NCBI GenBank assembly: GCA_017414565.1
Contig: JAFQLP010000109.1
Span: forward strand, 1 to 43,638
From: Lentisphaeria bacterium
Lineage (GTDB): Bacteria; Verrucomicrobiota; Lentisphaeria; Victivallales; Victivallaceae
Direction of reading: 5' to 3'
Length of the DNA: 43,638 nt
Part shown: in pieces, positions 34,713 through 43,638 of the stretch
How positions within the stretch are numbered: the first letter of the stretch is position 1
Layout of the letters: each line of letters begins with the position of its first letter
The notes under the pieces: generated by a model
Seen by the model: the letters and a program-made list of their open reading frames with translations, nothing else
The model's database searches: none
What the model was told of the DNA's origin: nothing
Position numbers and translations under genes: made by a program

Positions 34713-35261
34713 ATGAACATACCGGACCCGCAAAGCATTCCCCGTACCACCATGAACCGCCGTCCATCACGGTTGTGCGTGTGCCGTCTGCACGAAAAAA
34801 ATCCGGATATGCTGGCCACCCGGATGACCGGCCGGTATCTGACCACATTGGCATTTTCGCTGCTGCTGGGGGTGGGCGCGATCGTACTGGCGGGGTGTCT
34901 GCTGGCAGACCATCAGGACAAATCCGGTGTCATTGTCTTTGCGGGATTCGGCGGGCTGTATCTGCTGTTTTCCCTGCTGGCGTTCCGGGGCACATTATCC
35001 CGGCTGACGGTTTTCGACCGGGCCGCCGGAACCTTCCGGCAGCGGAACGGGACCGCGATCTGCCAACTCGATCAGATCGCCGCACTGCAACTGCTGCCGC
35101 CGGGCGAAATGCGGCGGAACGGGGAAATCAATCTGGTACTGACCGATGGCACCCGTCTGCATCTGCTGTCATTCCCGAATGACGAAACCATGCAGCAGGA
35201 GGCCGCATTGCTGTCCCGGTGGCTGGGCGGCGTGGCGGTCTGGCAGAATGGAGGGCTCTGA
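34713..35261 (+). CDS. Small two-helix membrane protein of unknown function
   Basis: A 182-residue protein. A basic N-terminal 40 residues containing CVCRLHEKN precede two hydrophobic segments (about residues 46-63 and 70-90). The remaining ~90 residues are beta-rich and alternate in a pattern that could be PH-like (LTVFDRAAGTFRQRNG, then ICQLDQIAALQLL, and INLVLTDGTRLHLL), an organisation seen in many membrane proteins with a small cytosolic domain. I do not recognise a named family. The second of two adjacent ATGs is chosen because AAGGAGG ends five bases before it; ATG 34710 is two bases away. It starts after the GntR gene and may be its target. Confidence 0.65.
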   Translation: MNIPDPQSIPRTTMNRRPSRLCVCRLHEKNPDMLATRMTGRYLTTLAFSLLLGVGAIVLAGCLLADHQDKSGVIVFAGFGGLYLLFSLLAFRGTLSRLTVFDRAAGTFRQRNGTAICQLDQIAALQLLPPGEMRRNGEINLVLTDGTRLHLLSFPNDETMQQEAALLSRWLGGVAVWQNGGL

Positions 35262-35323
35262 CGGCCCGCCGGAAAAACCCTGCCACGTTGCCGGATAAAG
35301 ACTCAAAACCAAGGATTTGCACC

Positions 35324-37894
35324 ATGCGACTGTTGATTCTGATGCTGTGGCTGTCGGTAACCGCCGTATCGGTATTTGCCGCCGACCGGCCGGCTTATCC
35401 GGGCCGGCTCGGCCGGTGGAAGACCGCCGGCAATGTCAAAGAACTGTATCAGACGCCGGAGGGGACGGTTTACCGTTTTGAGCCTTCGCCCCATTTTGCC
35501 GATCTGCACCGGCCGATTTACTCCAACGGCAAAAAACATCCCGATGACTGCACCTGCCGGACCTGCCGTGTCAAACGCAATCTGAATGCCCTGCAACTGC
35601 CGCTGAAAAAACTGAAACCCGGCCGCGATGATGCTCTTTTTGCTGTCATCGAATTCAAGGTGCGACTGTTTCCGGCACTGGAAAAAAATCAGGACCCGTC
35701 CCAACTGGCACTGGCATTTTATTTTGCGGAAAATACCGCCCCCGGCGTGAATGGAGACAGTCTTTATCAGGTTTTCCGGATTTCGCCGCAGGGGGTACAG
35801 CAGGAAAATCTGATCCACCGTTACAAAGCGGAAATGCAGGAACGGCTTTACGGCCGGTTTTATATGCCGCTTTTCGACTGGATCTCGGTACAAATGATCG
35901 TGGATATCTCCGAACACATCTGCCGACTCTATGTCAACGGCGCGCTTTATCAATGTATCGACCTGACCAAACGGGAGGATGAAGGCCCCAAATTCAACAG
36001 CATCGGCCTGTTTATCGAGATGGGAAAAAAACGCCCCACGGTATTTGAAGTCACCCGGCCGCGGCTGTCGTATCTGCCGACGAACAACAATGCGCTGGCG
36101 GCGTATCCGCCGACGGTCTGCGAACGGTACGATTACCGGGCGTATGAACAGGGCCCCCGGAAACGCATCCTCACCCCGGAGGAAATCATTGCGGCCGACC
36201 GTGACAATCCGGACCGGTATCATGCCGCCGCCATGAAGATCATGGCCGATCCGGATGCCGATCCGCGGACCGCATTGAAATACTGGCAGACGGCGGCCAA
36301 AGCCAATCATCTGCCGGCGCGGTATCAACTGGCGGTCTGTCAATGGCGCGGCATGGGCATGGAACCGGATCCGGACAAAGCGATCGAAATGCTCCGGGAA
36401 ATGCCGGAGTATCCACCGGCCGCCGCACTGGCCGCTCTGATCGAATGGAAACAATATCCGTATCCCGCCCTGCCGTCCCGGCATTTGCTGGACCGCACCC
36501 GGCGGGTCCTGGCCGATCAATCCGGCAATACCGTGATCCCGGCTCCGGATTTTCAACGGTTGCGCTCTTTCTGCGCCGGTATCACCCCGACACTGATGGA
36601 CCTGCGGCAGCAGCCCGCTCTTTCGCTCAAACAACTGCTCCGGCTCCGGCCGTTTCCCGCCATCCGGCATCTCACACAGCAGGAAATCAACGGCTTCCTG
36701 CCCTATGACATCCCGGATGACCGGCTTCATTCCCTCGATGATGCGGCATTTTACCGGGCCGTCCTGACCCGTGCGCTGCAAGCCAAAATGCCGCTGGCCA
36801 GACAGTGGATGGCGGAATGGCTCCGGAGTCTGGCTCTGTCCGGCAATGCCCCCGATGCCCTGCTGCTGGAGGCGGCCGAAGCCCAACTGCAATTTCCGGA
36901 AGCCCAGGCAGATCACGACTGTTCCCTCCTGCGCCTGCAACTCCGCTGGGAACGCAATCAGTTGACCATGGCGGAATTAGATACTCCGGCCAACCGGTTG
37001 CGGTTCCGTCATGATCCGACATTCGCCCTGCTCCAACTGGCCCTGCGTTACCCGGACACGCCGGGGTTGAAAGAACTGCGCCTCGGTCGAACGGACCGGG
37101 CCGTTGCGATCTGGCGGCAGGATCTGTCGCCGGAGTGCCGGATGATGCTCGCATTGGTGCAATGGCGCGCCGCCATGGGAACGCCGCCGGGATTCGGCTC
37201 CACCGTGGCCGGGCAGCCGGCCAACCGGGAACTGTGGCGCGAAACATTCCAACAATTGGCCGAAGCGGCCGCCGATCAATTACCGGAAGCCGAAATTGCG
37301 CTGGCCCGTTTGAGCGTGGAACTGCCGCCCGATGCCCAACCCCGCCCGAACCGGCTTTATCCGCTTTCCACGGCGATAGCCAAACTCAATCAGGCCGCCG
37401 GGAATGGCGATCCGGTTGCCGGGATGTCGCTGGTGAATCATTACCGGCGCGCCACCGGCGGCACGATCACGCCCCGGGTATTGCCACATCTGCAAACCGC
37501 GGCCGGTCTCGGTGATACCGAAGCATGTCGGCTGCTGGGGGAATCTTTGCTCAAAACGGGACGGCGGCAGGAGGCGTTGACATGGTTGAATCGGGCCGCT
37601 GACACCGGTGATCCGGCGGCATTGGCGATCATCGCCCGGCAGACCACCGGGGATGGGGCGGCGGCGGCATGGCGGCGGTTCGTCGAAGCCGACCGGCAGG
37701 CGCGGCTGAATGATCCGCTGGATTTTCCGGAACCGGAACTGCCGGTCAATCAGAACATATTGAACGGCATTCCCGCCTGGGAGGATTTTGCCGAAGCCAT
37801 GAAGCGGCGGGGCCGGGTCCAGCGTTACGAAGACTGGAAAAAATGGGGCCGCCAGAGCGAAGGCAAAATCGGCGGCACATCGCTGTCATTTTAA
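35324..37894 (+). CDS. Large secreted LamG-like plus Sel1-repeat protein
   Basis: An 856-residue exported protein. The signal peptide is residues 1-20 (MRLLILMLWLSVTAVSVFAA). Residues about 25-255 form a beta-rich module like LamG/concanavalin lectin domains (IEFKVRLFPALE, LYQVFRISP, YVNGALYQCIDL) with a CTCRTC motif near residue 78 that could bind a metal or form a disulfide. Residues about 290-400 and 650-790 have Sel1-type repeats (YHAAAMKIMADPDADPRTALKYWQ; GDTEACRLLGESLL), separated by less clear helical sequence. The start was placed at 35324, with AAGGA about nine bases upstream and a signal peptide right after it. It is the second secreted Sel1 protein in the window. Function unknown. 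Confidence 0.82.
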   Translation: MRLLILMLWLSVTAVSVFAADRPAYPGRLGRWKTAGNVKELYQTPEGTVYRFEPSPHFADLHRPIYSNGKKHPDDCTCRTCRVKRNLNALQLPLKKLKPGRDDALFAVIEFKVRLFPALEKNQDPSQLALAFYFAENTAPGVNGDSLYQVFRISPQGVQQENLIHRYKAEMQERLYGRFYMPLFDWISVQMIVDISEHICRLYVNGALYQCIDLTKREDEGPKFNSIGLFIEMGKKRPTVFEVTRPRLSYLPTNNNALAAYPPTVCERYDYRAYEQGPRKRILTPEEIIAADRDNPDRYHAAAMKIMADPDADPRTALKYWQTAAKANHLPARYQLAVCQWRGMGMEPDPDKAIEMLREMPEYPPAAALAALIEWKQYPYPALPSRHLLDRTRRVLADQSGNTVIPAPDFQRLRSFCAGITPTLMDLRQQPALSLKQLLRLRPFPAIRHLTQQEINGFLPYDIPDDRLHSLDDAAFYRAVLTRALQAKMPLARQWMAEWLRSLALSGNAPDALLLEAAEAQLQFPEAQADHDCSLLRLQLRWERNQLTMAELDTPANRLRFRHDPTFALLQLALRYPDTPGLKELRLGRTDRAVAIWRQDLSPECRMMLALVQWRAAMGTPPGFGSTVAGQPANRELWRETFQQLAEAAADQLPEAEIALARLSVELPPDAQPRPNRLYPLSTAIAKLNQAAGNGDPVAGMSLVNHYRRATGGTITPRVLPHLQTAAGLGDTEACRLLGESLLKTGRRQEALTWLNRAADTGDPAALAIIARQTTGDGAAAAWRRFVEADRQARLNDPLDFPEPELPVNQNILNGIPAWEDFAEAMKRRGRVQRYEDWKKWGRQSEGKIGGTSLSF

Positions 37895-37939: not shown

Positions 37940-39118
37940 TCACCACGCCCGGACGACCCTGTCAGCCGCTGCCGCGGCCTGTTCCCACGCTTCGCCCCAG
38001 AACGGATCAAAAACGGCGGTGACCGGGAATCCGGCGGCACGGGCTGTGGCCATGGCATAAGGGGCGTCTTCGCAAACCGGGGTTTCCGCCAGCCGGGTCC
38101 CCAATTTCTCCAGGGCCCGGAAATAAACATCCGGCGTTTCTTTGCCGCCCGAAACGATCCCCTCAAAACAATCCAGCATACCGAGCCGCTGAAGTGCCGC
38201 CGTGGCCAACGGGGTTTCCGTAGCCGTTGCCAACACCAATTTCCAGCCATCCGCTTTGAGTTTCCGCAAACGGTCTGCTGCACCGGGTTTGGCCGTTACC
38301 TGCATCCGGTAGGAATCATCCGCAAATGCCATCAAACCGGCTTCAATGGCGGCCACATCGGCTTCCAAATCAAAACGCGCTTTCAAAAAAACAGCCGCAT
38401 CGTGCAGATTGGATACCCGGATCAGATCCTGATCCAACGCCGGATCGGGTTCCATGCCGCAACGGCGCATCCATCCGGACCCGATGGAATACCACATCGG
38501 CATGGAATCAAGCAATGTCCCGTCCAGATCAAAAATCATGCCGCGCCCGCCGGCAAACGGTTCCGCGATCGCCGCCGCCGCCCGGCTCCCCAACGCCGGA
38601 TCAGCAGCCAATTGTCCGGCCGGCAGCGCAATCCCCGTCACCCCGCTTCCGGCCACACGCGGCAGATCATCCGCACCCCGGCAATCGGCGATCACCGGGA
38701 TCTTCACCGCTCCGGCGATCGCCCGCAGCCGTTCAACCGGCATGAATGGAAGCTGTAAAAATGCGGCACCGCCGGATTCGGCCTGCAACGCATCTTTTAC
38801 CGATGCCGCGACCCACCCCGCGGCACCATCGTCCGCCGGAGCCGTCAACACGGTCAACCGGTCACAGTCCGGCGACCGCCCGCTATCCCAATGTTCCCGG
38901 ACAACGGCCGTTCCGCCTCCGGCGATCAACGCCACCCGGCACGCCCGGCAGACCGGCAACGCCTGCTCCACTGCCAAACGAAATGCGGCGGCGGCAGCCC
39001 CGCCCTGCCGGAGCAGAATGGCCGTGGCACCGCCATCGACGGCCGCGCGTATCCGGTCTTCCGACACTCCGTCCGGCAAAAAACCGGCACACAATGCTGT
39101 TGCATCAGCGATCGTCAT
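37940..39118 (-). CDS. Degenerate ThiE-like domain fused to HAD phosphatase
   Basis: A 392-residue two-domain protein. Residues 1-190 look like a (beta/alpha)8 fold related to thiamine-phosphate synthase: GGATAILLRQGG near the start, and IPVIADCRGADDLPRVAGSGVTGIALPAGQLAADP at the position of the ThiE C-terminal phosphate site. The canonical ThiE motifs QLR-K, DGVHLGQ and VAIGGI are missing or altered, so catalysis is doubtful. Residues 193-392 are a HAD phosphatase with FDLDGTLLDS (Asp197, Asp199), a mutase-like cap, KETPDVYFRALEKLG and CEDAPYAM. Fusion to ThiE would suit hydrolysis of thiamine monophosphate to thiamine, but that is inference. ATG 39118 has GGGA nine bases upstream. Confidence 0.72.
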   Translation of the reverse strand: MTIADATALCAGFLPDGVSEDRIRAAVDGGATAILLRQGGAAAAAFRLAVEQALPVCRACRVALIAGGGTAVVREHWDSGRSPDCDRLTVLTAPADDGAAGWVAASVKDALQAESGGAAFLQLPFMPVERLRAIAGAVKIPVIADCRGADDLPRVAGSGVTGIALPAGQLAADPALGSRAAAAIAEPFAGGRGMIFDLDGTLLDSMPMWYSIGSGWMRRCGMEPDPALDQDLIRVSNLHDAAVFLKARFDLEADVAAIEAGLMAFADDSYRMQVTAKPGAADRLRKLKADGWKLVLATATETPLATAALQRLGMLDCFEGIVSGGKETPDVYFRALEKLGTRLAETPVCEDAPYAMATARAAGFPVTAVFDPFWGEAWEQAAAAADRVVRAW

Positions 39119-39181: not shown

Positions 39182-39670
39182 CTACGGACGGCGGCACGGC
39201 GGCAATCCCCGTTCCGCCCGGCATTGATTGACATACTGCCACAACGCCGGGTCCCGGTACAGTTTCTTTGCCAGCCCGGAAACACGCCACGCCAATTTTT
39301 CCGCGGCAGACTTCAAATCAAAATCCGCCGCCGCCAGATGATCCAACAGCCGGGCGCACCACAGCGGATAATCCGCATGGGTCACAGCACATTCCGCCCG
39401 CGGCAGCGGCTGCGGTTCCCGCCGGTACTCCAACGCGAACCGGAACCGGAGTTTCCGCAATGCCTCGGTACGGTTGCGCAACTGGCTCCGCTCGGTGCAG
39501 TCAGAGGCGGTCAATCCGGTCGCCGTATGCCGCACCCGGACGGCGGTGCAGGTACGGTTGCGATGCTGACCTCCGGCCCCGGTACCTTTGACAAATTCAA
39601 ATTGACACAGTTCTCCGAGTTCCCGGTCATCCAGCATCAACAGCCGGTCACGGTCGACGATCTCATTCAT
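39182..39670 (-). CDS. GGQ-motif release-factor-like protein (no codon-recognition domain)
   Basis: A 162-residue protein that matches only domain 3 of class I release factors. G33-G-Q35 in GTGAGGQHRNRT is the peptidyl-tRNA hydrolysis loop. There is no codon-recognition domain. It may rescue stalled ribosomes like ArfB/YaeJ, but the tail (WQYVNQCRAERGLPPCRRP) is much less basic than the lysine-rich ArfB tail, so the mode of mRNA-channel binding would differ. Start 39670 overlaps the end of the glycosyltransferase gene by eight bases. The full-length RF2 gene lies about 3.4 kb away. Confidence 0.85.
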   Translation of the reverse strand: MNEIVDRDRLLMLDDRELGELCQFEFVKGTGAGGQHRNRTCTAVRVRHTATGLTASDCTERSQLRNRTEALRKLRFRFALEYRREPQPLPRAECAVTHADYPLWCARLLDHLAAADFDLKSAAEKLAWRVSGLAKKLYRDPALWQYVNQCRAERGLPPCRRP

Positions 39671-40583
39671 GATAGAAATGGCGGACGATGGTCCCCGGCC
39701 GCCGTTTGGTTTCCACAAAAACTTTGGCCAGATAGATCCCGACGGTACCGAGCGAAATCATGATCAATCCCCCCAGCCCCCAGATCGAAGCGGTCAGATA
39801 ACTCCATCCCCACGGCACATGGAAAAAAAGTTTGTTGATGACCAGAAACGCCATCTGTCCCAGGGTTGCCAGAAAAATCACCCAGCCGAGCAGAAAAATC
39901 AGATAAAGCGGACCGGCACTGGATGATGTCAGCGATTCCACCGCATGACGCACCTTCCGCCGCAGGGAATAAGCACTGGAGCCTTTGTCCCCTTTGACAG
40001 CCATCACCGGCAACTGCCGGAATCCGGCCAGCGCGAAATTGACCCATAAATCGTATTCACTGCCGGCAAACTGCTTCAATGCCTCCACATAACGGCGGCT
40101 CATCAAACGCGCCGTCAGCGTATCCGCCGGATACTCGAAATCGGCACACCACCGCATCAACTGGTAAAAAACCGACCCGGAGATCCGTTCAAACCAACCG
40201 CCCCGGCGTTTTTCCTGGACCCCGTAGGCCACATCGGCCGCCGGATCGGCCTGCAATGCCGCAGCCAGTTCCGCCAGCAATTCCGGCGGTTCTTCCAGAT
40301 CGCAGTCGATCAGGTAAACCCATTCCCCCTGTGCCAGCGAGACCCCGGTCATCAGGGCTTTGTGATGGCCGAAATTGCGGGAAAGATCCGCCACCTTGAT
40401 CCGGGCATCCTGCTGCCGCAATTTCAATGCCAGATCCAGCGCATCATCCGGCGAACCATCGTTGACCAGCACGATCTCCCAGTCATCCCCGGCGAATCCG
40501 GCGGCGGCGGCGGCGGCACGCGACACAAATTCCGCCAGATACGGCTCCGACCGGTACAAACTTGTAACAATGGACAACTTCAT
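39663..40583 (-). CDS. GT2 glycosyltransferase with C-terminal membrane helices (GtrB/DPM1-like)
   Basis: A 306-residue enzyme. The N-terminal GT-A domain has LSIVTSLYRSEPYL, NDGSPDDAL (41-49) and the metal motif Asp93-x-Asp95 in LIDCDLEEPPE. Two hydrophobic segments near residues 228-250 and 265-287 anchor it. The order matches GtrB, ArnC and polyprenyl-phosphate glucosyl- or mannosyltransferases, which place a sugar on undecaprenyl phosphate for later use by GT-C enzymes. It could feed the GT-C-like enzyme at 798, but they are 38 kb apart. It starts within the stop codon of the kinase gene upstream (ATGA). Confidence 0.92.
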   Translation of the reverse strand: MKLSIVTSLYRSEPYLAEFVSRAAAAAAGFAGDDWEIVLVNDGSPDDALDLALKLRQQDARIKVADLSRNFGHHKALMTGVSLAQGEWVYLIDCDLEEPPELLAELAAALQADPAADVAYGVQEKRRGGWFERISGSVFYQLMRWCADFEYPADTLTARLMSRRYVEALKQFAGSEYDLWVNFALAGFRQLPVMAVKGDKGSSAYSLRRKVRHAVESLTSSSAGPLYLIFLLGWVIFLATLGQMAFLVINKLFFHVPWGWSYLTASIWGLGGLIMISLGTVGIYLAKVFVETKRRPGTIVRHFYHE

Positions 40584-43040: not shown

Positions 43041-43638
43041 CTATTCGCGGCGGATACCGCGGACAAATCCTTCGATGAATTCCTGAATATCACCATCCAG
43101 CACACCGGCGGTATCGCTGGTTTCGATCCCGGTACGGAGGTCTTTCACCATCTGATACGGCTGAAGCACATACGAGCGGATCTGACTGCCCCAGCCATTT
43201 TCCACTTTTTCACCGCGGATCGCATCGGCTTCATCGCGCCGCTGTTCCAGCCGCAGGGTGTACAATTTGGCTTTCAGCATGTTCATGGCGGTCGCCCGGT
43301 TTTTGTGCTGGGACCGTTCATTCTGGCAACTGACCACGATCCCGGTCGGCAGGTGGGTAATCCGGACCGCGCTGTCGGTGGTATTGACATGCTGACCACC
43401 GGCTCCGCTGGAGCGGTAGGTGTCGATACGGAGATCGTTTTCGTCGATTTCCACCTCGATATCGTCATCAATCTCCGGAAAAACATCCACCGAAACAAAC
43501 GAGGTGTGCCGTCTGGCGTTGCTGTCGAAGGGGGAGATCCGGACCAGCCGGTGGACACCTTTTTCGCTCTTCATATAGCCGTAGGCAAAAGGCCCTTCCA
43601 CCTTCATCGTCACACTCTTGATACCGGCTTCTTCGCCC
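43041..43638 (-). CDS. prfB: Peptide chain release factor 2, C-terminal part
   Basis: The 3' 199 codons are present; the gene continues beyond the right edge. The visible part has the RF2 tripeptide SPF ([16 protein letters not shown]) that reads UGA and UAA, and the GGQ loop in [18 protein letters not shown]. The C-terminal helix [15 protein letters not shown] closes it. The programmed-frameshift region near the start of many prfB genes lies outside the window. Full-length RF2 proteins have about 365 residues, so just over half is here. Confidence 0.97.

Follow-up and report, generated by a model that had tools for sequence, protein, structure and literature searches.

The gene studied here lies in a window of 43,638 nucleotides, the whole stretch of Lentisphaeria DNA that we analyzed. 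It is an open reading frame on the minus strand (37940-39118; ATG at 39118, stop codon at 37940) that encodes 392 amino acids, with a degenerate ThiE-like barrel in its N-terminal half and a HAD phosphatase domain in its C-terminal half. Its features are as follows, with counts referring to the 19 other ThiE-HAD fusions described below.

37940..39118, minus strand: whole gene, degenerate ThiE barrel plus HAD-IA phosphatase, 392 aa plus stop.
38552..39118, minus strand: degenerate ThiE/TenI-type barrel, residues 1-189 (Pfam TMP-TENI 24.5 bits; hhalign 97.9%).
39002..39016, minus strand: residues 35-39, LLRQG, remnant of QxRxK, with R37 the sole residue kept (Q, R, and K in 19/19 fusions).
37940..38551, minus strand: HAD-IA phosphatase domain, residues 190-392 and stop (HAD_2 70.7 bits).
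38516..38530, minus strand: HAD motif I, DLDGT, residues 197-201, nucleophile D197 (D197, D199, and T201 in 19/19 fusions).
38492..38509, minus strand: DSMPMW, residues 204-209, a DS[MIL]xxW-type signature common to close relatives.
38225..38227, minus strand: HAD motif II, T298 (T in 17/19 fusions, S in 2/19).
38141..38143, minus strand: HAD motif III, K326 (K in 19/19 fusions).
38066..38071, minus strand: HAD motif IV, E350 and D351 (D/E then D in 19/19 fusions).

The same-strand genes upstream encode an RF-1-domain protein, a glycosyltransferase, and a histidine kinase; the RF-1-domain (GGQ) protein is small and directly precedes the target (39182-39718, minus strand), and a second GGQ release-factor-like ORF, named by eye, lies at the window edge (43041-43613, minus strand). 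Convergent with the target, an 891-aa protein with a weak Sel1-repeat match (35219-37894, plus strand) ends 45 bases from its stop codon. No thi gene adjoins the target in the window, where no TPP riboswitch reached the gathering threshold either, so the gene lacks the thi-operon setting that marks some bacterial HAD ThMP phosphatases.

The ORF and its two-domain fusion are real, as established by the Pfam matches, by the hhalign comparison of the barrel with ThiE, and by codon scores over both halves. With seven other ORFs of the window as the training set, in-frame codon log-odds were 0.20 for the barrel half and 0.33 for the HAD half, the five remaining frames scored between –0.26 and 0.08, and the gene's own frame scored best in every sub-window tried, which rules out a chance open frame. 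A single-sequence AlphaFold run on the full protein gave a mean pLDDT of 40 and no usable model.

The initial annotation had proposed that the first half is a ThiE-like barrel with decayed motifs, and both parts of this proposal hold. Pfam returned TMP-TENI as the sole family for the barrel up to E 10 (24.5 bits, E 2e-5, below the 27-bit cut-off), which excludes another family; PanB, considered separately, gave a short sub-threshold match only. NCBIfam matches were weak, the best being the thiamine phosphate synthase models PRK00043.2-3 (16 bits, E 0.006), while thiE TIGR00693 reached 13 of 145 bits, under its curated cut-off, and the TenI thiazole tautomerase profile PRK07695 reached 10.9 of 251, too low to assign the barrel to that family. 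In the profile-profile search that had been suggested, hhalign matched residues 13-179 of the barrel to a profile of ThiE over 167 columns (probability 97.9, E 5e-13), with a probability of at most 0.7 for 30 shuffled barrels. A phmmer search with the barrel alone also recovered the ThiE halves of fused relatives (best E 7e-9, in a small set of ORFs drawn from the retrieved loci).

To place the motifs, we aligned the target with the 19 other ThiE-HAD fusions and the stand-alone ThiE of the host genome. QxRxK, ND, HxGQxD, the TxTK loop, and GGI are the catalytic motifs that we take to form the substrate and metal sites of ThiE. In the barrel, Arg37 of QxRxK is kept and Q and K are replaced by Leu and Gly; the ND pair reads GG; HxGQxD and IGGI are absent; and the TxTK loop is deleted, with 12 columns (GAVFPTSTKLDA in the other aligned sequences) missing. 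The barrel thus has neither a profile score above cut-off nor the conserved motifs of thiamine-phosphate synthases, and among the 20 ThiE-HAD fusions this loss is unique to the window's copy. Judged by its sequence, the ThiE half of this protein looks dead.

The HAD half is intact by comparison. Pfam HAD_2 covers it with 70.7 bits against a cut-off of 23.8 (E 2e-19), and motifs I-IV together with this score place it in subfamily IA of the HAD superfamily. Its best NCBIfam match is the sugar phosphatase PRK11587 (50.8 of 282 bits), its closest solved-structure matches are sugar or carbohydrate phosphatases, and it is 27-41% identical to its relatives in the class. The host genome has five HAD_2 genes, and the four besides the target are without the DS[MIL]xxW signature; a peptide-word search of the host's contigs produced a single HAD match, a weak one (28%, E 3e-6).

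The thiamine genes of the host genome (2.0 Mb, 183 contigs, 96% complete) define the step that this domain could serve. As the initial annotation had asked, we searched for an intact thiE elsewhere and found one clear stand-alone ThiE (179 bits) on contig C12, in a gene run of thi4, thiE, thiD, and thiC, all over NCBIfam cut-offs. This run (locus L017, 1404-5184, minus strand) has a TPP riboswitch at its head and pdxT adjoining, and the thiazole branch is of the Thi4 type (TIGR00292). Thiamine pyrophosphokinase (TPK) is present (64.6 bits versus 30.7 in Pfam; 102 versus 76.4 in NCBIfam). No ThiL was found in this 96% complete genome: the profile gave two sub-threshold genes only, HypE (347 bits as HypE, between HypD and HypB) and PurM (289 bits as PurM), and both were rejected. 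Because ThiE makes ThMP and TPK uses free thiamine, some enzyme must remove the phosphate; thus, an intact ThiE and TPK with no ThiL seen indicate that a ThMP phosphatase step is required in the host. Both the use of TPK without ThiL and the fusion of the phosphatase to a thiamine-synthesis domain, here the ThiE-like barrel, are features expected of a bacterial HAD ThMP phosphatase.

We surveyed 197 genomes of the class for relatives of the HAD half. Matches at E<=1e-10 occurred in 54 genomes, the window's own included, and 49 of these formed a close set at E<=1e-13, a limit chosen after seeing the gap from 1.4e-14 to 1.2e-12. The five matches outside it, at 1e-10 to 1e-12 (G125, G058, G053, G153, and G086), resemble ordinary HADs, and all five genomes have ThiL; the DS[MIL]xxW pattern or its E/T variants occurred in 49/49 close relatives and in 0/5 of these distant ones. 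The close set comprises 29 stand-alone HADs and 20 ThiE-HAD fusions (13 in genus g48, 5 in g79, 1 in g69, plus the window's). Fusions appeared in this whole-class search; none of full length was among the 60 relatives of our first search for relatives. A search of the phylum, by an even draw of genomes with at most four candidates scored per genome, gave matches at E<=1e-15 in 31 of 387 genomes, 30 of them in the class. No other member of the host's genus turned up in these searches.

In all 19 other fusions the ThiE half is essentially intact, the sole change being ND to DD in L102. We compared neighbors within about 4 kb (less at contig ends) by BLAST with ThiC, ThiD, ThiE, ThiM, Thi4, TPK, and PdxT only. 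Operon context with thiM, thiD, and/or thiC was found for 18 of these 19 fusions, often in the order thiC-thiM-[thiE-HAD]-thiD, and seven stand-alone HADs directly adjoin thiC (L019, L091, L097), thiD (L121, L128), or thiE (L122, L123). Altogether, 25 of the 49 HAD genes have thiC, thiM, thiD, or thiE as neighbors, and 24, the window's included, do not. TPP riboswitches at the gathering threshold were present in 3 of the 53 relatives' loci scanned (L019, L091, L119), in each case preceding the HAD's gene run in the same orientation.

The close relatives and ThiL exclude one another across the class. ThiL over its curated cut-off is found in 125 of the 197 genomes and TPK in 68. None of the 49 genomes with a close HAD relative has ThiL, compared with 125 of the 148 others (Fisher p 6e-29), and TPK is found in 44/49 compared with 24/148 (p 7e-21), although these p-values overstate the case because the genomes are related. 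With the looser E<=1e-10 set, the counts were 5/54 for ThiL and 44/54 for TPK (p 8e-23 and 3e-17). The exclusion recurs inside genus g15, where ThiL is found in 0 of 16 genomes with the HAD versus 13 of 18 without it (p 1e-5), and in each of the genera g18 and g45, the HAD occurs in one member and ThiL in a different one. Exceptions run in both directions: five HAD genomes have no TPK match, and nine genomes with TPK and no ThiL have no HAD at threshold (G030, G100, G133, G134, G175, G178, G180, G187, G191). These nine should have another ThMP phosphatase or a more divergent HAD, or be incomplete, as many of the exception genomes are. The exclusion, repeated within single genera, provides a sharp test set for this HAD subfamily as the functional substitute of ThiL.

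The TPK domain of genera g75 and g80 sits in open frames of 658-741 codons (G099:C84, G100:C246, G101:C263, G102:C25, G113:C85, G114:C32), compared with about 170-450 in the others listed, which may mean that TPK belongs to a larger fusion in these two genera.

In a maximum-likelihood tree of the 54 HAD domains, the window's HAD groups on a long branch with the g48 and g69 fusions with moderate support (92/69), and it is homologous to the relatives' fusions in both halves (residues 20-390 aligned). From this grouping and homology, we infer an intact ThiE-HAD fusion as the ancestor of the window's protein. The fusions of g79 are placed apart from this group, next to stand-alone g77 forms, and joining or splitting of the two domains may have occurred more than once. 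In G108, G111, and G140 (about 88-94% complete), the fused ThiE is the sole ThiE found at E<=1e-10 and therefore should be active there; the separate ThiE of the host would have freed its fused ThiE to decay.

We conclude, with a probability of about 0.8, that the target is the ThMP phosphatase of its host, derived from a bifunctional ThiE-HAD fusion whose synthase half has decayed; the phosphatase activity, the order of events, and the role of the barrel are what we infer here. The stand-alone ThiE on another contig would make ThMP, the HAD half would hydrolyze it to thiamine via an aspartyl-phosphate on Asp197 with Mg2+, as is general in HAD chemistry, and TPK would pyrophosphorylate thiamine to ThDP, replacing the ThiL route. 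The ancestor would have been a bifunctional TMP synthase/ThMP phosphatase, whose synthase half, once a separate ThiE was present, was presumably free to lose its active site, the barrel persisting as a folded scaffold that possibly serves in docking or substrate binding. The suggestion in the initial annotation that the HAD domain acts on ThMP is thereby strengthened by a host with TPK and without ThiL, and by relatives that replace ThiL class-wide and often carry an intact ThiE half or belong to thi operons. Its further idea, that synthesis and dephosphorylation are placed on one chain, probably no longer applies to the window's copy because the ThiE half looks dead.

Two other assignments of the HAD half must be weighed. 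It could be a general sugar-phosphate phosphatase (beta-phosphoglucomutase/HxpB-like) whose link to thiamine is historical only, as its best NCBIfam and solved-structure matches, all to sugar or carbohydrate phosphatases, and the position of the gene outside a thi operon would allow. All of those NCBIfam equivalog matches are, however, far under cut-off, and the relatives go together with thi genes and occur where ThiL is missing, which makes this reading improbable. We consider it quite improbable that the domain acts on HMP-P or HET-P, or on several thiamine phosphates in salvage or damage control, rather than mainly on ThMP: the operon partners of the relatives do include thiM, thiD, and thiC, which handle those precursors, but TPK and the HAD together take the place of ThiL, which points to ThMP, and dephosphorylation of HMP-P or HET-P would be expected to undo the pathway.

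For the barrel, continued activity as a TMP synthase, which would make the protein bifunctional, is scarcely credible. The barrel is clearly homologous to the ThiE halves of the 19 other fusions, which look intact, but it retains the Arg alone of QxRxK, has GG for ND, lacks HxGQxD, IGGI, and the 12 loop columns, and an intact ThiE is encoded elsewhere in the genome. More speculatively, and doubtful in our estimation, the barrel could now be a ligand-sensing or substrate-capturing domain that holds ThMP (or ThDP) via the remnant site and gates the fused phosphatase; if so, a former bifunctional synthase-phosphatase would have become a regulated ThMP phosphatase. Returning to the preferred reading, that of a ThMP phosphatase with a decayed synthase half, it is well supported that the target is a missing-step enzyme of known kind, probably a ThMP phosphatase that carries a relic ThiE domain. 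It is only modestly surprising, through its decayed half and through how cleanly this HAD and ThiL exclude each other. Bacteria that use TPK need a ThMP phosphatase, which profile annotation labels only as a HAD hydrolase or sugar phosphatase.

Enzymes of this kind have been described. According to an excerpt of PMC5627462, which cites Hasnain et al. (2016, Biochem J 473:157), TMP is dephosphorylated by HAD-IA enzymes, the bacterial ones being fused to thiD/thiE-like genes or in the same operon, with operon membership given as an alternative to fusion and the two not required together. Table 4 of PMC4921024, the part of that source used here, lists HAD-IA in the thiamin pathway among the cases where fusion led to functional discovery, and a plant ThMPase is described in the portion of PMC4861732 consulted. 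The kind is thus already known, with HAD-IA/ThiE fusions in print, and the small novelty here is a copy whose synthase half appears dead. No fusion with a dead ThiE half was seen in open-licence papers, in searches not aimed at that exact point. The window's protein contributes an example of seeming decay in one half of a bifunctional fusion after a separate gene took over the work of that half.

As the excerpted description goes, the target resembles the bacterial HAD-IA ThMP phosphatases of Hasnain et al. (2016) in its HAD-IA domain, its ThiE-type fusion, and a genome with TPK and without ThiL; it differs from them in that its synthase half is degenerate, its gene lies away from thi genes, and its activity is predicted from comparison. 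The TenA-HAD fusion of PMC4921024 Table 4 likewise joins a thiamine-pathway domain to a HAD domain, but the partner in that entry is TenA rather than ThiE. With ThiE/TMP synthase (PF02581, TIGR00693) the barrel shares its fold and a sequence relation, whereas it scores under the curated cut-offs and has lost the active-site motifs. Closest are the same-class ThiE-HAD fusions (L102-L120), which have the same domain order and length and are homologous in both halves; unlike the window's copy, they keep an essentially intact ThiE half (19/19) and a place in a thi operon (18/19).
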